Shown here: piece after piece, positions 1 to 39,238 of the stretch
How the letters are laid out: the number at the start of each line of letters is the position of its first letter
Numbering within the stretch: position 1 is the stretch's first letter
Virus record (IMG/VR): IMGVR_UViG_3300037193_002810
Span: 1 to 41,675 of that record
Origin: a virus
DNA: 41,675 nt
Direction: 5' to 3' (one strand)
Program-made: the position numbers and the translations under genes
The notes under the pieces: generated by a model
What the model saw: the letters and a program-made list of their open reading frames with translations, nothing else
Told to the model about the DNA's origin: nothing
Databases searched by the model: none

Positions 1-141
1 CGCCAAGGCGATCCCCTCGACTCCCACGCTGACCGGCACCCACTGCTGCGTGGGGCTCTTCGGCACGCTCCACACGTCGAACCCTCCCGCCGGCGTCAGG
101 CCCGGCAGGACGACGATGAAGCGCTCCCTGGTCGGCAGGAA
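1..141. repeat. Terminal direct repeat, left copy
   Basis: The first 141 bases are identical to 41535-41675. An exact repeat of this length that lies inside a single open reading frame (the helicase) is what an assembler leaves when a circular or permuted molecule is closed. The unique sequence is therefore 41,534 bp. A genuine short terminal repeat of the virion DNA is possible, but one falling in the middle of a conserved coding frame is less likely. Confidence 0.95.
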
Positions 142-1425
142 CCACACGCCGGCCGCGGTGCGCGACCACTGCTGATCGCTCTTGTGGAACAGGTCGACGA
201 TCTCGGCGACGAGCGCACGCGGATCTTCGCGAATCGCGTCTTCGTCGATCCGCACGTCGAGATCGTCGATCGGGTCGTCGGGCAGTTCGAGCGGTTCGGC
301 GTCGTCAGCCTCCTTCGCGATCTCTTCGGCCACCTGGTCGCCGAACAGGTCGATCTGTGCCTGCAAGGTGTGCCGCGCGGTCGCGCCGACCACGTCGAGA
401 ATCAGACAGTCGGCCTTGCCGGGGTGGGTGCGCAGCCCGCGACCGGCCATCTGGATGTAGAGCCCGTCATGCAACGTCGGGCGGGCGATGACCACGACCG
501 AGGTCACGGGGAGGTCGGTGCCCTCCGTGAAAACAGCACAGTTGCACAGGAACTGGACATCTCCGGCGGTGTACTCGCGCAGCGCCTGAGCGCGCTCCTG
601 AGCCGGCGTACCCCCGTGGACCAGCCGTACCGACCGACCGTCGGCCGACAGCGCGTCGGCGATCGCCTCAGCGGCCGCCACAGTCGGCGCGAAGACGATG
701 CCCTGGCGGTCGTCGGCGTGCTCGCGGATCGCCTCCGCGATGCGCTTGGGCGCCATCGAGTCGGTGATCGCCGCACCGAGGTCGGCGTCGCGGTAGTCGC
801 CGCCAGCCTTGCGCACGCGCCGCATGTCGAGGTCCTCGACGCGCACGCGCAGCCCCCAGGGGCGCACGAGAAAGCCGTTGTCGACCATCCACATGATCGG
901 CGGGCCGGCTACGACCGTCTGCCAGACGTCCCCAAGCGAGAGCCGGTCGGAGCGCGTCAGCGTCGCCGTGACGCCCAGCACCTGAGCGCCGACCCACACC
1001 CCGTTGATCAACGTCGTGTAGCTGAGCGCCGCGGCCCGGTGGCACTCGTCGACGACGACCAACCCCACGTCGGGGATCATCCGCGCGCGACGGCCGTCGC
1101 GCGGCGCCAGGGTCTGTACCGACCCGACCACCACCGGCGCCCGCGTCTGGTTGCGTTCGGCCTTGACGATGCCGACCGGCACGTTGCTGTGTGCGCGGAT
1201 CCGGTCGGCCGCCTGCTCGACGAGTTCGGTGCGGTGCGCCATCACCACCGCGCGGCGTCCCTGTGCCGGCCCGGCCAGCCACCGTTCGATCACCTCGGCG
1301 AAGGTGGTCGTCTTCCCGCCGCCGGTCGGCAGCACCATGGCCACCGACCGGAATCCCCGCGCCCACTCGCGCTCGACACCGGCCACCAACTCCTGCTGGT
1401 ATGGCCGGAGAATCTGGCGACTCAC
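1..1425 (-). CDS. SF2 DNA helicase (DEAD/DECH type), N-terminal 475 codons
   Basis: ATP-dependent helicase of superfamily 2 (UvsW/ResIII-like), probably acting in phage replication or recombination. Visible motifs: Q-like motif RPYQQELV near residues 7-14, Walker A LPTGGGKT (32-39), DECH box VVDECHRA (124-131), motif III VTATLT (152-157), and motif VI QMAGRGLRTHPGK in the second RecA domain. The GTG start at 1425 overlaps the TGA of the upstream 70-aa gene (GTGA), indicating translational coupling. The frame continues through position 1 into 41534-41313, giving 548 aa in the closed circle, a normal length for the family. Long plus-strand frames here are antisense shadows. Confidence 0.93.
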   Translation of the reverse strand, partial: MSRQILRPYQQELVAGVEREWARGFRSVAMVLPTGGGKTTTFAEVIERWLAGPAQGRRAVVMAHRTELVEQAADRIRAHSNVPVGIVKAERNQTRAPVVVGSVQTLAPRDGRRARMIPDVGLVVVDECHRAAALSYTTLINGVWVGAQVLGVTATLTRSDRLSLGDVWQTVVAGPPIMWMVDNGFLVRPWGLRVRVEDLDMRRVRKAGGDYRDADLGAAITDSMAPKRIAEAIREHADDRQGIVFAPTVAAAEAIADALSADGRSVRLVHGGTPAQERAQALREYTAGDVQFLCNCAVFTEGTDLPVTSVVVIARPTLHDGLYIQMAGRGLRTHPGKADCLILDVVGATARHTLQAQIDLFGDQVAEEIAKEADDAEPLELPDDPIDDLDVRIDEDAIREDPRALVAEIVDLFHKSDQQWSRTAAGVWFLPTRERFIVVLPGLTPAGGFDVWSVPKSPTQQWVPVSVGVEGIALA

Positions 1426-1670: not shown

Positions 1671-1863
1671 GCGCTGCGGCCAGACCCGGCCACGAGAGCG
1701 CGCAACACGAGGGCGGCACGTTGCCGACGTCGAGTCGCCCGCGGCACGGGCACCGCTCAGGCCGGTTGCGATGGACCCACCCGTCCCGGTCCTCCCAGCA
1801 GCGGCACGGGTACGGAGCCGATACGGCCGTTCCGGTGGCCAGCCACACTCCGGTGCGAATCAT
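1645..1863 (-). CDS. Small cysteine-rich protein, possible zinc binding (72 aa)
   Basis: Hypothetical protein with a cysteine-dense middle: CRC, then CPCRG about 18 residues later, then CC. This looks like a small zinc-binding fold, but the spacing fits no family I can name. The ATG at 1863 overlaps the TGA of the upstream gene (ATGA). A TTG five codons earlier is a possible alternative. The stop TAG lies inside the -10 box of promoter P1. Function unknown. Confidence 0.55.
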   Translation of the reverse strand: MIRTGVWLATGTAVSAPYPCRCWEDRDGWVHRNRPERCPCRGRLDVGNVPPSCCALSWPGLAAALANAQHVG

Positions 1864-2159
1864 TTCGAGGTGACCCAATCTCCGTCACGCTGTCGAATAG
1901 CGTCGACAAAACATCTGACAAAGCTGTCTCGGAGAATCTGATTCAGAACATCGAGTGGAACGACATCGAGGATCTCCGGAAGAAGATCGACGACGCCCGT
2001 GAAAATCTCGTCATCTATTTTCCGCTGAATGCGATATTGCCAGTGCCACTGCTGCTTAATTCGCTTGTCGGTCACTCTTCGGCGGGTAATCCGGTCTCCG
2101 ACCGCTTCCCATTCGCCGTATTCCACTGTCGAGAAATGCGAACTGCTATCCTCGTCCAT
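1860..2159 (-). CDS. Hypothetical protein of lower GC (99 aa)
   Basis: Start chosen at the ATG at 2159 (MDEDSSSHF), preceded by GGCGG about 5 nt upstream. The open frame extends further but enters GC-rich, probably non-coding DNA. The protein has a basic middle (ITRRRVTDKRIKQQW) and a hydrophobic helical C-terminal half (EILDVVPLDVLNQILRD). No family recognised. Its upstream half (1981-2160) is about 53% GC by my count, clearly below its neighbours, which suggests recent acquisition or relaxed selection. It is the first gene downstream of the TGACGCA repeat cluster, so those repeats could also control its promoter. Confidence 0.6.
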   Translation of the reverse strand: MDEDSSSHFSTVEYGEWEAVGDRITRRRVTDKRIKQQWHWQYRIQRKIDDEIFTGVVDLLPEILDVVPLDVLNQILRDSFVRCFVDAIRQRDGDWVTSK

Positions 2160-2279: not shown

Positions 2280-2492
2280 TGACGCACTGACGCACCACCG
2301 CGTCACCCATAGGGGTGTGACGCGTCGGTGTGTTTGCGTCAGGGTGCCGACGCATGAGTAGAAGATGATGCGTCACCTCTTGCGTCACGGTCTGACCTGC
2401 GGATTTGCAAGATCGTGACGCACCAAGTTGATCAATGCGTCACGATCTGCGTCAGGGGTGTCCGAAATGTCGCGAGTCAGGTCGGTGCGTCA
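2280..2492. repeat. Iteron-like cluster of TGACGCA repeats; candidate replication origin
   Basis: Twelve copies of TGACGCA or its complement TGCGTCA lie in 213 bp, at most one base off. TGACGCA-type: 2280-2286, 2288-2294, 2318-2324 (TGACGCG), 2348-2354 (CGACGCA), 2416-2422. TGCGTCA-type: 2299-2305 (CGCGTCA), 2335-2341, 2369-2375, 2381-2387, 2436-2442, 2448-2454, 2486-2492. The last overlaps the stop of the Prim-Pol gene. Most of 2160-2489 is gene-free. Iterons next to a Prim-Pol/AAA replication gene are typical of plasmid and phage origins, where the replication protein binds them. An operator array is the alternative. Confidence 0.7.
2410..2448. repeat. 13-bp inverted repeat inside the iteron cluster
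   Basis: Perfect arms AGATCGTGACGCA (2410-2422) and TGCGTCACGATCT (2436-2448) are separated by 13 bases that contain the palindrome TTGATCAA. Each arm carries one iteron. It could be a dimeric initiator site or a cruciform at the origin. Confidence 0.75.
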
Positions 2493-4922
2493 GGAGCTTT
2501 CGGGCGATTTGGACTTACGCCTCTCTTCCGCAAGTTTTTCGTCGATACCGGACGTAAGCAACTGCCACTCCGCGATGTCGAGCACGCCGACTCCACCCAC
2601 CGCGAGATCCGGGTTGGGCGTGAGGACGCCGTCCGCCGACTGGTTCTCGACCTCGATGATCTTGAACCGCTGCTTCCGGTACGCCACCAGGCCCCGCTCG
2701 ATAAGCAGCGCCCACGCGCGGGTAAACGCCGAATTCAAGCCAGTCCTACTGCCCTTCCAGCCGATTGCCTCACCGAGGGCATCGCGAATCTCGGCGTAGG
2801 TTTGACCGGGGACGCCGAGTGCTGCATGCATGATTTCCCACACCTTGCGGGCGCGCTTCACGTATTCGTCTTCGCGCCTTTCATCAGTGGTCGGTGCTTC
2901 GTTTCGGAATACGGCAACCGCGCTCGTATGACCTGGCTCGAATACTCCGAACTCGGTGGGAATAGGCACCTGAATAAGATCGAAGATAATCGGACGCATT
3001 TTCTCGTCGTCTTTGGATTTCGTGTTCGACACTTCGATCTGCGTGTTGGTCATCTTGACGCCGACCTCGGTTTGCAGCGCGCCGGTGATGGCAGTGCCGC
3101 CGCGACCGCGCTCACCGGCCGCGCCGTAGTGGTGCAGCAGCAGCACGCAGGCGCCGGTGGCCACGCGCAACCCGTCGAGCCGGTCGACCACCTCGCCGAG
3201 TTCGGTGTTGTCGATCTCGTTGACGCCGACGGTCATCCGAGCCTGCGTATCGCCGATCACGAGCACCGGAGCGATCTCGGCCAGCGTCGCCGTGAGCACC
3301 GGCCATTCATTGCCGGTCACCTGCACCGGACGGGGGAGGAACAACACGCCCGACGGAAACTCACGCTCGTGATGACGCTCCCACGCTTCGACGCGCCCAC
3401 CCACGCCTTCTTCGCCCTCAGCCACCAGATAAACCACGGTTCCGGCGTGCGTCCCCCGCCCGGCCCAGCCGGTACCTTCCGCGACGGCAGCCGCCAGTGA
3501 CAGCGCGATGAAGCTCTTCCCATGCCCGCTCGCGCCGTTGATCCGCGCGAGCGTGTTGCGATAGAACAGCCCATCGACGATGGGACGCAGGCGCGGTCGC
3601 GCCTTCAGGGCCTTCGCGTCGATGATCTCAGCACGCATTGCGGTCAACCGCGCGCCGACGTCTCCGGCGTCGCGCGTCTCGCGCCATCGCCGCGCCGCCT
3701 CGCGCGCGTCCTGTCTCTGGATCTCCGACCACACGTCGGCCCGCATATCGGACGGAGGCGGTGCCGGCGGGAGGCTAGGTGCCGGCGTCGTAGCCGTCGC
3801 CGGCGGCACCCCATTCACCCCACTGGACGCGGCGCCATTCCAGCCAGGCTCGATGATCGTCGGCACCCCATCGACCGCCCCGGGCTCCGGGGCCGGCGGT
3901 AAAGGGAGTGCGATCCCGGGCAACACGTCGGGGGGTGGCGGCATTTCCCTGGCCCGGCCGCCTACCTGCGCCTTCGCGCGCTCCCACTGGTTGACGATCT
4001 CGTGCTCGCCGTACCCGCCGCCGCCGGCGTTGCCGGCCGCCCAGCGCATCGCCTGCGCGTAGTGCTCGAACACCTCGGCGTGCGGCCAGCCCGCCAGGTT
4101 GGCGATCTCGACCAGCGAGCAGCCGAAGCTGAACGCCGCCTCACCGCGGCGCCCGTCAGTCAGCGACGCGTACGCGTCAACTTCTGCACGAAGTGCCGCG
4201 GTGGCGTACGCTTGGACCGAGACCGCCGGATGTGATGACCCCTCGCCCGCCCCGTGTTCCGAGCCACTCCCAAGACCCCCCGGTTGCGGTAGTCCCTCGA
4301 TCCGGCCAGCGGTAGAGACCATGTGATCCGGCGGTCGAATCATGTCCAGCAGCCACGCCGGCGGCGTGTGCGGCTTCCACCAGTCCTTATCCGGGCACAC
4401 CTCGACGTACTGCCCCTTGGCGCTGACGCTGGGTGGCGCCACCACCTGGCCGCCCTCGCCGCGCACGTCCCACCCGGGCGGGAGAGAGTGCGTGCGTCCG
4501 GCGCCGCCGCCGGCCGACTGCCGGTTGCGCACCTCGAAGTCGCGGGGCAGCGCGAACCGGTAGTGGTATCCGCCCCCGCCGGTGCGCACGTGCGGCACGT
4601 AGCCCTCTTCGTGCAGTCGGGCACCCAGGTCACCGAGCGCGGCATCGGCGGGGTCGTAGTCGAGCACCCAGAATCCCGACGGCGAGCCGGTCAGAATGCC
4701 GATGTTCTCCAGACTGGCGCCGCCGTTCCACCGACCCGGCTGGCTGGACTGCGCCGGATCCTGCCAGTTCCTGCCGATCGGGTGCTTGCCGGCCGCTTTG
4801 CACCCGGGCCGGTCGCACGAGCACCGCGTGGTGCCGGGGCGGATGAAGTGCAGGGGAATGATCCTCCATCCGCGGGCGACGTATGCCACCGCGGCGGCGT
4901 GCATGCTGTCAAACTGTGTCAT
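2490..4922 (-). CDS. Bifunctional primase-polymerase with RecA-like helicase domain
   Basis: Replication protein of about 810 aa. Residues about 5-195 form a Prim-Pol domain (archaeo-eukaryotic primase fold) with the metal-binding VLDYDP motif (Asp88, Asp90), RTGGGGYHY (113-121) and VRGEGGQVVAPPS (153-165). Cysteines around CSCDRPGC (34-41) may bind zinc. A Pro/Ala-rich linker (about 325-390) leads to a RepA/AAA_25-type ATPase: Walker A GASGHGKS (463-470), Walker B LVIGDTQ (554-560) and LLLHHYG (594-600). The C-terminus looks like a winged helix. The ATG at 4922 has GGGGAG five bases upstream; an in-frame GTG two codons earlier is too close to it. It likely primes and unwinds DNA at the adjacent iterons. 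Confidence 0.92.
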   Translation of the reverse strand: MTQFDSMHAAAVAYVARGWRIIPLHFIRPGTTRCSCDRPGCKAAGKHPIGRNWQDPAQSSQPGRWNGGASLENIGILTGSPSGFWVLDYDPADAALGDLGARLHEEGYVPHVRTGGGGYHYRFALPRDFEVRNRQSAGGGAGRTHSLPPGWDVRGEGGQVVAPPSVSAKGQYVEVCPDKDWWKPHTPPAWLLDMIRPPDHMVSTAGRIEGLPQPGGLGSGSEHGAGEGSSHPAVSVQAYATAALRAEVDAYASLTDGRRGEAAFSFGCSLVEIANLAGWPHAEVFEHYAQAMRWAAGNAGGGGYGEHEIVNQWERAKAQVGGRAREMPPPPDVLPGIALPLPPAPEPGAVDGVPTIIEPGWNGAASSGVNGVPPATATTPAPSLPPAPPPSDMRADVWSEIQRQDAREAARRWRETRDAGDVGARLTAMRAEIIDAKALKARPRLRPIVDGLFYRNTLARINGASGHGKSFIALSLAAAVAEGTGWAGRGTHAGTVVYLVAEGEEGVGGRVEAWERHHEREFPSGVLFLPRPVQVTGNEWPVLTATLAEIAPVLVIGDTQARMTVGVNEIDNTELGEVVDRLDGLRVATGACVLLLHHYGAAGERGRGGTAITGALQTEVGVKMTNTQIEVSNTKSKDDEKMRPIIFDLIQVPIPTEFGVFEPGHTSAVAVFRNEAPTTDERREDEYVKRARKVWEIMHAALGVPGQTYAEIRDALGEAIGWKGSRTGLNSAFTRAWALLIERGLVAYRKQRFKIIEVENQSADGVLTPNPDLAVGGVGVLDIAEWQLLTSGIDEKLAEERRKSKSPESS

Positions 4923-4964
4923 GTTCACTCCCCGGTGAATGCGTCGGTCGATGGTTCCCCCCGT

Positions 4965-5556: not shown

Positions 5557-5768
5557 GGTACGAGTACCGCGCGCTCCCGGGACCGCATGATCACATCGTC
5601 GACGTCCACAATGGACAGTTCGTGGTCGCCGTACCCGAACATGAGCACGACGCCATCCCGTACGCCCTCGCCAATCTCGCGCAGCACTTCACGATCGAGG
5701 TAATCGATGGAACCGGTCATCCCGCACCAGACCCCGCCCGCGCCGCCGAACACCCGCCCGTGCGCTGA
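5553..5768 (+). CDS. Hypothetical protein (71 aa)
   Basis: Coupled to the gene before by an ATGA overlap. It begins MRYEYRALPGPHDHIVDVHN, contains a plausible beta-rich stretch with several His/Asp residues (HDHIVDVHNGQFVVAVPEHEHD), and ends in a Pro/Ala-rich tail that overlaps the next gene out of frame by 62 nt. No family recognised. Confidence 0.6.
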   Translation: MRYEYRALPGPHDHIVDVHNGQFVVAVPEHEHDAIPYALANLAQHFTIEVIDGTGHPAPDPARAAEHPPVR

Positions 5769-5955
5769 GCCGACGTGCACCGTGCGCGTCCCGACGGAGC
5801 GCCTCTGCTGCCCGCCGCACTGGGCGCGCCTGCCCGCGGACCTGCGGACCGCGATCGGCGAGGCCTACCGGGAGCGTCGCCGTCACCCGATCCCGCACCT
5901 GCGGGCGGTCGGGGCGGCGCGCCAGTGGATGAAGGCCAACCCGCCACCGCTCTGA
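5707..5955 (+). CDS. Small zinc-finger-like protein (82 aa)
   Basis: Pattern CAEPTC (19-24), then LCCPPHWARLPADLRTAIGEAYRERR. Short CxxxxC...CCxxHW proteins of this kind are common in actinophages and probably form one zinc site, but their role is not known. A GAGG lies 7 nt before the ATG at 5707. It overlaps the preceding gene in another frame; I favour both as real because the CCPPHW pattern and the Shine-Dalgarno support this one and the ATGA coupling supports the other. Confidence 0.7.
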   Translation: MEPVIPHQTPPAPPNTRPCAEPTCTVRVPTERLCCPPHWARLPADLRTAIGEAYRERRRHPIPHLRAVGAARQWMKANPPPL

Positions 5956-5961
5956 TAGACT
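5953..5961 (+). promoter_or_regulatory. Possible extended -10 promoter
   Basis: TGATAGACT is an extended -10 (TGnTAGACT) whose TGA is the stop codon of the gene before. No good -35 is present 16-18 bp upstream. Unlike the leaderless set, the next start (5995) has a normal leader with AAGGA. Confidence 0.4.
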
Positions 5962-5994
5962 GAGCCAACAGACGACTAGGTAAGGACCGACCAC

Positions 5995-6102
5995 ATGACT
6001 GACGAACCGGCGCCCGACACGCCGCGGAATCCGCTCCCCAAGCCGAAGGAGCCGGACCCGCCCAAGGAGCCTCGCGACCCGCGGGAAGACTGGTGGAACT
6101 GA
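5995..6102 (+). CDS. Tiny proline-rich acidic protein (35 aa)
   Basis: MTDEPAPDTP start, Pro/Lys/Glu repeats (PKPKEPDPPKEP) and a WWN end. The ATG at 5995 has AAGGA about 9 nt upstream, and the stop is 1 nt before the next start. It is intrinsically disordered and resembles in composition the two proline-rich peptides before the large terminase. Function unknown. Confidence 0.6.
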   Translation: MTDEPAPDTPRNPLPKPKEPDPPKEPRDPREDWWN

Positions 6103-6103
6103 C

Positions 6104-7996
6104 GTGCCCACTAAGAACCAGGTCGCCGAACAGGACCGGCAGTCCGAACTGCGTCGCACCGAAGCCTGCGCAAAGATCATCCGGCACGCGCTCGTCCCCG
6201 TCGACGGAAGCGATGACGACAGCCCACGTGGGCTGTCGGTGGGCGTGCTGTCGGCGCTGAGCGAGGCGATCGACGACGAGGTGGCTGACATCGCCGCGCT
6301 GCGTCGCAAGGGATGGCAATCGACGATGAAGGCCCACATCACGGCGGCCGAAATCGTGCGCACCTGGCGTGATCTGCTGGTCGCCTACGCTCCACCCGCC
6401 GGGCCACCGCGCCCGCCCGTGGAAATCGCCGTCGACCACCGCGCCGACACGCCGGCCGAACTCGACGCGCGCCTCACGGAGGCCTTCGGCCCGGAGCTCG
6501 CCCCGGTGCGCCACATCCGCACCGCGCTGGAGTCGGACGATCCGACCGGCCCGCTTCCCGTCGATGGCGTCCAACCCCGGTACGGCGCGCTGTGCGGCGA
6601 GAAGACCGGCTCCTGGACGCACCGCGGCGGCGCGAACTGCCCGACGTGCATCGCCACCTACGACGACGAGTGCGGGCCATACACCGGCCCGACGGCCTTC
6701 AGCGGCGGCCCGGAAGGTGGCGAGGTGCTCTCGCCCATCGACGGCTCGACGATCGGACACGTCACTCCATCGCCAGTCGATCGCCCCTGGCGGGACGGGC
6801 CGGTCACGCCGGAGGTCGCGCGGGCAATGCGCGAAGCCGGCCCGTTCACCGCGTCGGAGGTCGTCACCAGCCCGGGCGTTCCGGCCGATGAGGTGCTGAT
6901 CGTCTCGCCGACTGAAAGTCTGCTCGCGCCCGTCGTGCAGCCGTTGGCCGAACGCAACTTGATCCAAGAGCAGGCGGATGCCGTTCGACAGTTCGACGCG
7001 GCGCTGAGCAACCCGCAGAGCGAGCAGCAGTTGCAGGGCCTGGCCCTCAATATCGTCGAGCCGTCCGGCCCGCAGGCGCGCCCGCGCATGACACCCGAGC
7101 AGGTGCGTGCGCACGGTCTCTCGCGCCAGCGTGGCGCCCAGCACCGCAGCGTCTCGCAGGTGACCGGCTACGCAGACTGTGGCACCCGCTACGCGCTCGA
7201 CGACCTCGAAGCGCCGGCATGGTGGAACGTGGGCGGGAAGGCTCTGCACCGGTGCGTCGAGACGATCAACCGGCTCGCCGCCGACGACAACACCGCGGCC
7301 GAGGTTCTCGGTGACACGGACAACTTGTGGAACCGCGCCTTCGACGCTGAGATCGCGAACGAAAACGTCGAACGCTGGCCCACCGACCAATGGCGCGTCG
7401 CCAACCGTGGCAAGGAGAACTTCGACTGGTGGCGGGTCGAGGGTCCGTCCATGGTCGGCCGATATGTGCATTGGCTGCTCGGGCGACTGTCCGACGGATG
7501 GGAGTTCGCGCGCGTGTGGCAGGGCAACTACGGTCCCGGCCAGCCTCGGCAGCCCGCCGTGCCCGTGATCGAGTTCAAGTGCCACCTGAACGTGGGCGCG
7601 TCGGTGCCGAATCTGTCCATTGTGGACATGGCGCTGTTCCACCCGATGCATCACCTTCTGGAGGTGATCGATATCAAGGCCGGCGGGTCGGCGCCGAAGG
7701 ATACGTTTCAGCTGGGCGTGTACGGGTGGGCGTTGCTGGCGGCCGGCGTCGCGGGCTTCATCCCCGATCCCGACTACTCGAACGTGCGCGGCCGCTACTG
7801 GCGCGCGCGCACCGGCATCTGCGTGCCCGAGGAGGAGAGGGCGGGCTGGCCGGTGCTGGCGATGCATCCGTGGCCGAACGTCGTCGACCGCTACCGCACG
7901 CAAGACGCCATGGAGCGCCAGGGGTTCTATCAGCCGAACGTGTCGTCGCTCTGTGGTGGGTGTGGCGTGCGCGACCTCTGCCCGGCGAAAGCTTGA
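6104..7996 (+). CDS. Cas4/RecB-like PD-(D/E)XK nuclease with Fe-S cysteines and long N-terminal extension
   Basis: 630 aa, GTG start. The C-terminal half is a RecB-family nuclease: SVSQVTGYADCGTRY (from about 350), a central Asp (IVDMAL, about 506), the core EVIDIKAG (about 521-527, D and K) and FQLGVYGWAL, the QxxxY motif. The first cysteine (about 359) plus the terminal CGGCGVRDLCP cluster matches the four Cys that hold a 4Fe-4S cluster in Cas4/AddB-type nucleases. The first about 340 residues are extra, with CGEKTG...CPTC that may bind zinc. Likely a 5'-3' exonuclease for recombination, working with the ssDNA-binding protein downstream. Confidence 0.85.
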   Translation: MPTKNQVAEQDRQSELRRTEACAKIIRHALVPVDGSDDDSPRGLSVGVLSALSEAIDDEVADIAALRRKGWQSTMKAHITAAEIVRTWRDLLVAYAPPAGPPRPPVEIAVDHRADTPAELDARLTEAFGPELAPVRHIRTALESDDPTGPLPVDGVQPRYGALCGEKTGSWTHRGGANCPTCIATYDDECGPYTGPTAFSGGPEGGEVLSPIDGSTIGHVTPSPVDRPWRDGPVTPEVARAMREAGPFTASEVVTSPGVPADEVLIVSPTESLLAPVVQPLAERNLIQEQADAVRQFDAALSNPQSEQQLQGLALNIVEPSGPQARPRMTPEQVRAHGLSRQRGAQHRSVSQVTGYADCGTRYALDDLEAPAWWNVGGKALHRCVETINRLAADDNTAAEVLGDTDNLWNRAFDAEIANENVERWPTDQWRVANRGKENFDWWRVEGPSMVGRYVHWLLGRLSDGWEFARVWQGNYGPGQPRQPAVPVIEFKCHLNVGASVPNLSIVDMALFHPMHHLLEVIDIKAGGSAPKDTFQLGVYGWALLAAGVAGFIPDPDYSNVRGRYWRARTGICVPEEERAGWPVLAMHPWPNVVDRYRTQDAMERQGFYQPNVSSLCGGCGVRDLCPAKA

Positions 7997-8021
7997 CGAC
8001 CTACCCGACGTCGGGTAGACT
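7993..8021 (+). promoter_or_regulatory. Leaderless promoter P4 with perfect operator dyad
   Basis: -35 TTGACG (7993-7998), 17 bp spacer, -10 TAGACT (8016-8021), six bases, ATG at 8028. Positions 8001-8018 form a perfect 18-bp palindrome, CTACCCGACGTCGGGTAG, covering the spacer and half of the -10. The stop TGA of the nuclease gene sits inside the -35. Confidence 0.85.
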
Positions 8022-8027
8022 AGCAGC

Positions 8028-8156
8028 ATGGCGAAGCACAGGGAGGGCGAAGCGCCCGGCACGGAGGCCCAAAAGAAGGCGGCACAAGAGGCCAAGGACA
8101 AAGCGGAACTGAAGGCCTTGGAACAGAAGCTGCGCAAGCAGGGCAAGATCAAGTAG
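8028..8156 (+). CDS. Tiny charged helical protein, leaderless (42 aa)
   Basis: MAKHREGEAPGTEAQKKAAQ followed by Ala/Lys/Glu repeats; almost certainly one long helix or coiled coil. Translation should start on a leaderless mRNA from P4. It sits between the nuclease and the putative ssDNA-binding protein. Its size and composition resemble small phage proteins that bind host factors, but nothing specific can be said. Confidence 0.7.
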   Translation: MAKHREGEAPGTEAQKKAAQEAKDKAELKALEQKLRKQGKIK

Positions 8157-8197
8157 CACTCGATATCGGACGCGACGAACGCGACAGGAGAACCACT

Positions 8198-9115
8198 TTG
8201 TACCCACAGCAGCAGTACCCGTCCGCCCCGCCGCAGCCCGGCTATGTGGCGATGACCAACCCCACCGGCGGCGCAACCGTCCCGGTGCCCATGCCACCGC
8301 AAGCTCAGCCGCCCGCCCCTCAGCCCGCCGCGCCGGTGATGCCCAACGTCATCGAGCCGGGCGGCGGCGGCGAATGGACACCCAAGGAGCGCAACCTGCT
8401 CGGGCGAGCCGTCATGATCCTGCCCACCTCGATCGACGAGTCGAACAACTACAACGGCACCGTGCGCCCGCAGGTCACCTGCGACGTGCTGGTGGTCAAC
8501 GTCGACGAGAACGGCCAGCCGCTCGGCCCGATCACGTACGGAGAGAACGCCAGCCGGAACCCGGTCGAGCAGCGGCCGCCGTGCTTCTCCGTCGACGGCC
8601 AGATCATCGAGTTCACCGGGATGTGGATCAACAGCGCCGGCATCGTGCCGACGCTGCGCAACGTGCTCGCACAGCGCGGCGTCACGCTCGGGCGAATCGT
8701 CCAGGGTCAGTCCGCGTTCCTGCTCAACAAGCTGGCCGACAACGACCCGGCCCGGGCGATGCTGATCGAGGCCTGGCAGAAGCGGGCCGGCGGCACCTTC
8801 AAGGCCCAGCCGATCGAGATCAACGGTGGCCCGCCGAAGAAGAACGACGGTCCCGGCCAGCCCGGAGCACACGGCGGCTACGCGCCGCACCCGGGCGGCG
8901 GCATGCCGCAGCACGCCGGAGCGGTGGCGATGGGTCCGCAGGTCAACTACGGTCCGCCTCCGGCGGCACCGCCGCCCCCGGGCGGCACGCCGCCGCCACC
9001 CCCGCTGGCCGCTCCCCAGGGTCCCGGGCCGAACGCGCAGGCGGCGGGCTGGACGCCGGAGGCCTTCGCCGCGGCGCCGCCGCACGTCCAGCAAGCCATC
9101 CTCGCCGCGGGCTGA
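8198..9115 (+). CDS. Putative ssDNA-binding protein, Pro-rich tails
   Basis: 305 aa with a TTG start and AGGAG 7 nt upstream (no better in-frame start nearby). Residues 1-45 are Pro/Gln-rich. About 57-215 is a folded, beta-rich domain (LLGRAVMILP, VTCDVLVVNVDENG, QIIEFTGMWI) compatible with an OB fold. About 215-285 is Gly/Pro-rich, ending in a short helix. Actinophages often encode a similar ssDNA-binding protein next to the Cas4/RecB-like nuclease, and the disordered C-terminal part recalls SSB tails. I base the function on position and composition, not on a diagnostic motif. Confidence 0.5.
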   Translation: MYPQQQYPSAPPQPGYVAMTNPTGGATVPVPMPPQAQPPAPQPAAPVMPNVIEPGGGGEWTPKERNLLGRAVMILPTSIDESNNYNGTVRPQVTCDVLVVNVDENGQPLGPITYGENASRNPVEQRPPCFSVDGQIIEFTGMWINSAGIVPTLRNVLAQRGVTLGRIVQGQSAFLLNKLADNDPARAMLIEAWQKRAGGTFKAQPIEINGGPPKKNDGPGQPGAHGGYAPHPGGGMPQHAGAVAMGPQVNYGPPPAAPPPPGGTPPPPPLAAPQGPGPNAQAAGWTPEAFAAAPPHVQQAILAAG

Positions 9116-9141
9116 CGGACCAGCCACTACGTCCCCGCGAA

Positions 9142-9180
9142 GGCGCCCGCACCGACAGCCCGAGTGCCGGTGCGGGCGCC
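9142..9180 (+). terminator. Strong GC hairpin, terminator-like
   Basis: Perfect 13-bp stem GGCGCCCGCACCG (9142-9154) / CGGTGCGGGCGCC (9168-9180) with a 13-nt loop, directly after the ssDNA-binding gene. No U-tract follows, as is usual for actinobacterial hairpin terminators. Confidence 0.6.
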
Positions 9181-9212
9181 GCCCTCTATCAAGATCATTA
9201 AGGAAGTGGGTC

Positions 9213-9731
9213 ATGGAAATCCCCGACGAACTACGACAACTCGACCTGTCCAGAACCCAGCGCATCGCGCTGGAAGCCGCCGTCGAGCACGATCAGCCCG
9301 TCCCGGCTGGCCGCACCCGAAACGCCCTGTGGGGAATCGATTGCGTCAACGAAGACGGCACCGTCACCGACCTCGGCCGACGCCAGGTGCGCTGGTACAA
9401 CGAGGACATCGCGCTGTTGTGGGGCGTCGAGCCGGACACGATCAACAGCTACGTCGGCACCACCTCGATCCCGCCGGAGGATGGCCGGGCGATCGTCGGC
9501 CGGCACGCACGCCGGTACTGGAAGCCGTCGACGATCCTGAGCTTCGAGCGTCCCGGGATGGGTAACACCGGCCCGCGGATCGAGTTCGACGTCCAGCGCA
9601 TGATCCGGCAGTTCCGCACCGGCCAGCACAGCATCCGAGCCCTGGCGCGCGAGCACGGCGTGTCCGCGGCGACCATCACCGACCGCCTGCGCTCCGCCGG
9701 AGCGCTCGAACAAAAGGAGGCAGCATCGTGA
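9213..9731 (+). CDS. DNA-binding protein with two helix-turn-helix segments (172 aa)
   Basis: The ATG at 9213 is preceded by AAGGAAG at 8 nt. A central segment (EDIALLWGVEPDTINSYVGT, about 70-89) looks like a winged/MerR-like helix-turn-helix, and a C-terminal one (SIRALAREHGVSAATITDRL, about 141-160) matches the resolvase/Hin-type HTH. Two reading heads suggest sequence-specific DNA binding, as regulator or recombination accessory. It overlaps the next gene start by GTGA. No catalytic domain is seen, so it is not an integrase. Confidence 0.7.
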   Translation: MEIPDELRQLDLSRTQRIALEAAVEHDQPVPAGRTRNALWGIDCVNEDGTVTDLGRRQVRWYNEDIALLWGVEPDTINSYVGTTSIPPEDGRAIVGRHARRYWKPSTILSFERPGMGNTGPRIEFDVQRMIRQFRTGQHSIRALAREHGVSAATITDRLRSAGALEQKEAAS

Positions 9732-38552: not shown

Positions 38553-38581
38553 AGTCTACACGACGACCGGTGTCCTCACAA
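38553..38581 (-). promoter_or_regulatory. Promoter P10 (same family, not leaderless)
   Basis: Minus strand: -35 TTGTGA (38581-38576), 17 bp spacer ending GGTCGTCGTG, -10 TAGACT (38558-38553). The stop TGA of the small terminase is in the -35, as in the family. No ATG or GTG follows at 6-7 nt, so the transcript has a leader. Candidate late promoter. Confidence 0.7.
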
Positions 38582-39238
38582 GTCGTCCAGCGACACGCCC
38601 TCCAGGATGATCGAGACGCCGATGTCGGTCTGCTCGATGCGCACCGGCGAGTCGAGCCCGTGGAGTTTCGCCTCACGATCAAGCAGCGCCTTGATCGTGC
38701 TGATCGCCTGCAGCTTCGGCCCGTCGTCGAGCACCGCCGGCCCGTCGCAGTACTGGCCACCCTTGCCCCACGTGCACCCGTCGTGCTGTGGCTGGCCGGC
38801 GTAGTCCAGACCCGGGCAACCTTCCCGGACGATCTTGCCCTGCGAGTGGGCGACGTGCGGGCGCGCGAGCACGCTCAGCGCCTCCGACTTCAGGTGGTCG
38901 AGCAGCGATTGCTGCTGCTGCCGACGCACCTCGACCGCCTGCGACGGCACCCGCTCGTAGGCGCGGGTGATGCCGTTGACCACGTGTCCGGTCGAGCTAT
39001 ACCCCAGGTGCACCATGATCTTGCTCAGGGACCAGCCCATCGACTGCAGGCGCGCCGCTTCGATGTCGCGCTGCTGGCCCTTCAGAGTCGTCGTAAATCG
39101 ACCGCCACCATTGCGTCCGCGGGTCGCGTTGCGCTCGCCGGAACCCTGGCCGCCGACCAGTTCACCGATAAGCGGAGACCGACTCTCACTTTTGAGGTCA
39201 ACCTCTTGTGTGGTCGCTTCTTTGGTCTGACCAGGCAT
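38576..39238 (-). CDS. Terminase small subunit (candidate)
   Basis: 220 aa. Central helix-turn-helix AARLQSMGWSLSKIMVHLGY (about 61-80), the DNA-reading part, followed by a long helical oligomerisation region (AVEVRRQQQQSLLDHLKSEA) and a C-terminal part with a Cys pair (EGCPGL...DGCTWG). The basic, Gly-rich N-terminus is disordered. Position at the head of the packaging operon fits. It overlaps the gene before by TAATG. Confidence 0.7.
   Translation of the reverse strand: MPGQTKEATTQEVDLKSESRSPLIGELVGGQGSGERNATRGRNGGGRFTTTLKGQQRDIEAARLQSMGWSLSKIMVHLGYSSTGHVVNGITRAYERVPSQAVEVRRQQQQSLLDHLKSEALSVLARPHVAHSQGKIVREGCPGLDYAGQPQHDGCTWGKGGQYCDGPAVLDDGPKLQAISTIKALLDREAKLHGLDSPVRIEQTDIGVSIILEGVSLDDL

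Follow-up and report, generated by a model that had tools for sequence, protein, structure and literature searches.

A TGACGCA iteron array behind a Prim-Pol/helicase gene, a probable replication origin in a tailed-phage contig

The DNA analyzed (hereafter the window) is the IMG/VR virus record IMGVR_UViG_3300037193_002810 at its full length of 41,675 bases, which is classed only as linear, a class that often represents a fragment. All the main genes are located on the minus strand and follow the order of tailed phages: a RusA-like resolvase, terminase, portal, protease, major head, tail, tape measure, and endolysin are followed, at the low-coordinate end, by the replication genes. Among the latter, the gene at 2490–4928 (minus strand) encodes an 812-residue fusion of a Prim-Pol and a RepA(RSF1010)-type helicase, the proposed initiator, as identified by Pfam, PHROGs, and fold match to 1nlf, 1olo, and 1g8y. 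This protein carries a Prim-Pol domain (residues 13–191; 4356–4892, minus strand; Pfam), an AAA_25 RecA-fold helicase domain (residues 438–604; 3117–3617, minus strand; Pfam 1.8e-28 and fold match), and a putative C-terminal winged helix (residues 681–757; 2658–2888, minus strand; low-confidence model with pLDDT of about 40–55). A small ORF of 99 residues, read from ATG 2159 in the same direction as the Prim-Pol gene (1860–2159, minus strand), is located on the far side of the array described below, and an SF2 DNA helicase of the replication module (ResIII/Helicase_C; 1–1425, minus strand; Pfam and PHROGs) extends past the contig end. If the next gene begins at ATG 2159, the array lies within a segment of about 330 bp (2160–2489) that is without a convincing gene.

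An ORF of 1,182 residues that adjoins the replication genes (5717–9265, minus strand) gave no match in Pfam or PHROGs, and its region shows a strong AT skew (0.33 at 8–9 kb). In the region near the terminase, 38576–39238 (minus strand) matches PHROG 645, annotated as RNase E. No close relative of the Prim-Pol protein was matched among viral contigs, the window DNA gave only short helicase matches against phages, and a sequence search of the protein against PDB gave no match.

The array occupies 2280–2492 and consists of the heptamer TGACGCA in both orientations. A total of nine exact copies, starting at 2280, 2288, and 2416 on the plus strand and at 2335, 2369, 2381, 2436, 2448, and 2486 on the minus strand, and three copies with one mismatch, at 2299 (minus), 2318 (plus), and 2348 (plus), were counted within these 213 bp, in agreement with the twelve copies with at most one mismatch given in a preliminary description of this DNA. 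A degenerate TGACGT stands ahead of the array at 2275. The description had also judged the cluster to be far above chance, and this judgment held: after first-order shuffling of the window (200 times), no 213-bp stretch contained more than three exact or seven one-mismatch copies, against nine and twelve observed. With any 7-mer allowed but counted without overlap, nine copies were observed against not more than six across the 200 shuffles; with overlaps allowed, CG-rich self-overlapping words raised the shuffle maximum to 12, and the nine copies observed did not reach significance. No other 7-mer cluster in the window is as strong as the TGACGCA array. Over the whole window, one-mismatch matches to TGACGCA numbered 140 against 176 expected, without over-representation, and therefore the array is a local feature; a window-wide search detected no second TGACGCA cluster.

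The center of the array includes, as first described, a perfect 13-bp inverted repeat (2410–2448), of which the arms at 2410–2422 (AGATCGTGACGCA) and 2436–2448 (TGCGTCACGATCT) are separated by a 13-nt spacer, and which is built from two convergent iterons. The strand of the array folds better than shuffled sequences (z = -5.7). The AT content of the array reaches its maximum, 0.53 in 40 bp, at 2401–2440, overlapping the inverted repeat, while that of the window is about 0.32. The terminal iteron at 2486–2492 (minus strand) holds in its first three bases the TGA stop codon of the Prim-Pol gene (TGA/CGCA), and thus the cluster indeed touches the stop of a Prim-Pol/RecA-like gene, for which Pfam detects both Prim-Pol and AAA_25. 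Since only some neighboring iterons in the window are spaced near a helical turn (8, 12, and 12 bp), the helical-turn spacing is claimed on the basis of the arrays of relatives.

Viral contigs and bacterial genomes were searched for clustered TGACGCA at the DNA level, without reference to any protein. At least 159 loci carried five or more copies in 300 bp, with 98 viral loci among the matches listed. Dozens of viral contigs carry dense arrays in this way, and the GC content of array-bearing contigs ranges from 0.34 to 0.72. Among these 98 listed viral loci, a gene of at least 350 residues abuts the array by its 3′ end in 31 and by its 5′ end in three, counts that are indicative only, as the set includes near-duplicate loci and a predicted ORF overlaps 40 of the 98 arrays. 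When the flanking proteins were clustered, again among the matches listed, a replicase like that of the window, or linked to it, was found at 29 loci and a second replicase family at 14; at most of the 29, the 3′ end of the replicase gene comes to within about 45 bp of the array. The abutting genes examined encode, by Pfam, primase-helicases with one of three engines, AAA_25 (the window, L002, L043, L125, and L263), VapE-like (L008 and L137), or D5/DUF5906 SF3 (L022, L073, L102, L231, and L190), and the primase modules associated with the three engines are Prim-Pol, Toprim, or RepB-primase. The protein of L002 is related to that of the window (39% identical across 238 aa in the helicase region), and eleven copies of TGACGC are located 8–241 bp from the stop codon of its replicase gene. 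In one relative, L024, all the array copies are in one orientation. Conservation of the cluster in relatives had been proposed as a check, and the same type of array is indeed found behind the replication genes of many contigs.

The scan also returned clusters of other kinds. Strictly one-orientation tandem arrays of TGACGCA were found in L106 (5620–5779; 16 copies), L122, and L355, of which L106 and L122 may be coding repeats rather than origins because they lie inside predicted ORFs. In L107, L157, L214, and L232, TGACGCA clusters lie beside a tyrosine integrase gene, 16–21 bp from its 5′ end, and are perhaps integrase arm sites rather than origins. A ParB_N domain fused to an N6/N4 DNA methylase is encoded 1.7–2.3 kb from TGACGCA arrays in L054 (2634–3803) and L245 (4111–5361).

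To avoid bias from selection by word, samples were fetched by protein only, for the VapE family, a subset of AAA_25 (the full AAA_25 set being without conserved blocks for alignment), and a subset of D5. The queries were taken from array-bearing loci, and thus the nearest relatives are over-sampled; upstream and in-gene controls were taken from the same loci. The mean number of TGACGC per 510 bp was 2.87 downstream versus 0.37 upstream for VapE, 1.61 versus 0.42 for AAA_25, and 1.45 versus 0.25 for D5. For each of all 1,024 frames of the form XXNNXXX, the score was the count of loci at which a single filling occurred four or more times. TGNNGCA came first behind both kinds of replicase gene, with 15 of 42 loci for AAA_25 and 26 of 77 for VapE, and reached four copies in none of the upstream or in-gene control segments taken from these loci. 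The frame was rare in the D5 sample (1 of 42), in which the commonest repeated word outside CG-rich sequence was GTGACGG. The filling is nearly always AC in the VapE family; for AAA_25, the fillings at 76 loci before removal of redundancy were AC (9), GC (7), CC/CG (5), AT (4), GA (3), TG (2), GT (1), and GG (1). The word thus varies between phages, as in TGGCGCA, TGCCGCA, TGATGCA, and TGGAGCA.

The anatomy of the array was examined with 41 non-redundant arrays. The median distance from the stop codon to the first iteron is 6 bp, same-strand spacing peaks at 8–12 bp (about one helical turn) and again at 16–19 bp, the two orientations are about equal in frequency, convergent pairs occur at no fixed distance, and T is essentially absent directly before the word. 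The overlap of stop codon and iteron seen in the window recurs in 19 of 64 arrays from relatives.

As a positive control, the same procedure was applied to phage P4 and recovered the known crr site, in which the annotated type-1 repeats (5′-GGTGAACA) are present in both orientations and which ends 46 bp from the alpha stop codon. Among cultured phages, a TGGCGCA array is located behind the RecA-family ATPase gene of Microcystis phage Mae-Yong1326-1, and an array of GGGGTGACC behind the VapE-type primase gene of Marinobacter phage PS3. The array was absent behind the primase genes of the cultured actinophages that carry the nearest named relatives of the window protein (TPA2, Evaa, Audrey, Acadian, Morrissey, BFK20, and others), including BFK20, in which a gap of 470 bp behind the RepA-like gene is without such repeats; the array is therefore not a fixed property of this protein family. 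In the Pseudomonas phages Haddon, U5, and LPPA36 (L646, L647, and L648), a TGGGACA/CTGTCCCA array 0.4–0.9 kb behind a VapE-type gene is a probable origin with a different word.

Which part of the protein reads the word was approached with the VapE family, in which the last 70 or so residues are modelled as a winged helix (pLDDT of about 90) with winged-helix domains (Fur, MecI, and cohesin) as Foldseek neighbors, at E-values no better than 0.03. The iteron class was predicted by the nearest neighbor in this C-terminal domain for 53 of 79 proteins (null, 42; p = 0.016) and was not predicted by the nearest neighbor in the helicase domain (35 of 79), and the C-terminal columns of the alignment are more informative on iteron class than the helicase columns. 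Of the 28 proteins with TGACGCA arrays, 23 contain a recognition-helix motif, GTx[EDS][QAS]RR[IV], against 8 of 51 others, but the Fisher p of 7e-9 overstates the association, since the motif was picked after inspection from related sequences; for such sequences, E-values and p-values serve as guides only. Within the VapE family, iteron type is thus linked to the C-terminal winged helix rather than to the helicase, which supports reading of the iterons by this domain. For the window protein, the model has a mean pLDDT of 49 and is usable only for the RecA core, of which the best structural neighbors are RSF1010 RepA, 1nlf, 1olo, and 1g8y (E about 5e-10 for 1nlf and 1olo). Helices at residues 681–704, 711–721, and 734–751 fit a winged helix at low confidence, and the VapE recognition-helix motif is absent from this C-terminal domain. 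By analogy with VapE, the window protein's own C-terminus may likewise be the iteron reader. A BLAST comparison detected no C-terminal domain common to all three helicase families; the C-termini cluster by family.

Taken as a whole, these results are best explained, with good probability, if the array is the origin at which this phage starts replication, or a cis-acting component of that origin comparable to P4 crr, used by the adjacent Prim-Pol/helicase protein. The layout of an iteron-controlled origin, as the preliminary description had proposed, is well supported by the conserved arrays 3′ of replication genes in many unrelated contigs and by the recovery of P4 crr with the same method. 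By analogy with P4, PICI, and RSF1010 (PMC4234260; PMC6092414), binding, opening, loading, and priming at the array could proceed as follows. The product of the adjoining gene would bind the TGACGCA iterons, probably through its C-terminal winged-helix domain, and several protomers would assemble on iterons about one helical turn apart. Cooperative binding on one face of the DNA may bend the duplex and open it near the AT-richer inverted repeat at 2410–2448; the RepA-type helicase ring would be loaded on the opened DNA, and the Prim-Pol domain would make the first primers. Against an origin stand the lack of a strongly AT-rich unwinding element (not above 0.53 AT in 40 bp) and the GC skew, which had been suggested as a check and shows no switch at 2.4 kb.

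The same two observations, neither an AT-rich element nor a skew switch in the window, favor a different role, in which the array is an accessory cis element (for copy-number control or handcuffing, a centromere-like parS, or a second site like P4 crr) and replication truly starts elsewhere. An accessory role like that of crr is the strongest rival, though an unlikely one: P4 requires both ori and crr, with the same repeats in each, and parS repeats are reported just downstream of repA in two extrachromosomal mycobacteriophages (PMC7157519), but the window contains a single TGACGCA cluster, ParA and ParB were not found among its ORFs scanned, and PICI origins of the same layout suffice, together with Rep, for plasmid replication (PMC6092414). 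Binding of a repressor or regulator, which would turn the iterons into an operator array controlling the small gene at 1860–2159 or the downstream helicase operon, is improbable. The array does lie between two co-directional genes and upstream of ATG 2159. Multi-site operators are used by actinophages. The conserved neighbor in relatives is, however, the 3′ end of the replication gene and not the 5′ end of a large gene (the 31 versus three of the 98 listed viral loci), the upstream control segments of the same genes never reach four TGNNGCA copies, and a scan of 1400–2800, by a method that covers actinobacterial promoters poorly, detected no sigma-70-like promoter.

Recognition of the inverted repeat or the folded strand, instead of the iterons, by the Prim-Pol protein would make the site a stem-loop origin of the pRN1 type. 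Such an origin directly behind a Prim-Pol replication gene is described for pRN1 and, by prediction, for phage BIP-1 (PMC4234260), and both the folding of the array and its perfect 13-bp stem agree with it; yet iterons arranged in both orientations will always fold well, L024 and similar relatives carry the copies in a single orientation, and it is the identity and spacing of the word that are conserved, convergent pairs having no fixed distance. This reading is very improbable. The least probable of the four alternatives is that a host-encoded DNA-binding protein, and not the phage initiator, reads TGACGCA. It would explain the occurrence of the same word beside different helicases, since the 7-mer is found next to AAA_25, VapE, and D5-type replicases, but the word differs from phage to phage, its variation in the VapE family follows the C-terminal domain of the phage protein, and the array-bearing contigs cover the wide range of GC content given above.

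The array reading preferred here, that of a phage origin used by the neighboring primase-helicase, has a likely counterpart on bacterial chromosomes. About 20 Streptomyces chromosomal loci (including L286, L287, L289, L303, L306, L334, L345, L360, L383, and L393) carry 8–14 copies of [AG]TGACGCA between a rep-like gene and a tyrosine integrase gene, and the 3′ end of the rep-like gene is located at the very uniform distance of 172–190 bp from the array. The rep-like gene gave no significant match in Pfam; in L329 it is preceded by a Prim-Pol gene, and an FtsK-like gene is also present. These arrays are likely to be the origins of Prim-Pol/RepPP-type actinomycete integrative elements (AICEs), the elements being recognized here from these genes alone, and suggest that integrative elements use the same word as phages. 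AICEs of the Prim-Pol/RepPP type are known, although the term "iteron" is not used for them in PMC3218068; they are integrating conjugative elements, not phages. From the lack of an integrase, the preliminary description had gone on to the idea of plasmid-like replication. Neither ParA/ParB nor an integrase was matched among the ORFs scanned in this linear, possibly partial record, but plasmid-like replication gains no specific support from this, because the same origin layout exists in the integrating satellite P4 and in the integrase-bearing Streptomyces elements; with its terminase, portal, protease, major head, tail, and endolysin genes, the window is a tailed-phage contig.

As a more tentative generalization, for which we hold somewhat less than even confidence, TGNNGCA (mostly TGACGCA) may be a shared and exchangeable origin word, read by C-terminal winged-helix modules attached to at least three unrelated engines (RepA/AAA_25, VapE, and D5/SF3) in tailed phages, and integrative elements may use it as well. 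The two variable middle bases could then act as an incompatibility-like specificity, and the window would be an actinophage-like member of an origin code that crosses protein families. The layout with an array behind the replicase gene appears to be widespread in ordinary phages. Origins are unknown for most phages, and the simple rule obtained here, TG-N-N-GCA repeats right behind the stop codon of a primase-helicase gene, was tested on the protein-fetched samples and places predicted origins in many uncultured phages. It is also suggested that one DNA word serves the origins of mechanistically unrelated helicases, which raises the question of competition for origins, or exchange of them, among phages, satellites, and integrative elements with the same word. 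A literature search, covering the listed titles and abstracts of open-access papers, showed no description of a TGACGC iteron of phages.

Among the known systems, the P4 alpha system resembles the one proposed for the window in that the initiator, helicase, and primase are combined in one protein and short repeats in two orientations are located just behind its stop codon; the P4 repeat GGTGAACA has GTGA in common with GTGACGCA. The origin binding of P4 alpha is assigned to a C-terminal winged helix, as cited in PMC4234260. P4 differs in its second repeat cluster (ori), about 4.5 kb away, of which no equivalent is seen in the window, and in its protein, which consists of a Toprim primase and an SF3 helicase. 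The window system works like P4 but is not a member of the P4 alpha/crr type, because its protein joins a Prim-Pol to an AAA_25 helicase with the fold of RSF1010 RepA. In the PICI, the iteron origin is located immediately 3′ of rep and drives plasmid replication together with rep (PMC6092414). The pri-rep-ori arrangement of PICI/SaPI thus shares with the window iterons directly 3′ of the replication gene, but in PICI origins two sets of iterons flank an AT-rich stretch, whereas the window array is continuous with a mild rise in AT, and the carrier, unlike a PICI, appears to be a full tailed-phage genome.

The origin of pRN1, served by ORF904 (Prim-Pol, SF3 helicase, and winged helix), is noncoding DNA right behind the Prim-Pol replication gene and forms a stem-loop without iterons (PMC4234260). 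Its position is the same as that of the window array; the helicases differ, SF3 in pRN1 and RepA-type in the window, and in place of a stem-loop of about 100 nt free of iterons, the window array is dominated by iterons with a 13-bp inverted repeat among them. RSF1010, with RepA, RepB′, and RepC acting on the oriV iterons, shows the same division of labor between iteron binder, helicase, and primase, and the window protein contains a RecA-fold helicase of the RepA family. The three functions belong to separate proteins in RSF1010, while in the window the primase and helicase are fused and the putative reader domain is located at the C-terminus. On the best reading, the array is an iteron origin placed at the 3′ end of its initiator gene that functions in the manner of P4 crr and the PICI origins, from which it differs by its attachment to a fusion of Prim-Pol and RepA(RSF1010)-type helicase.
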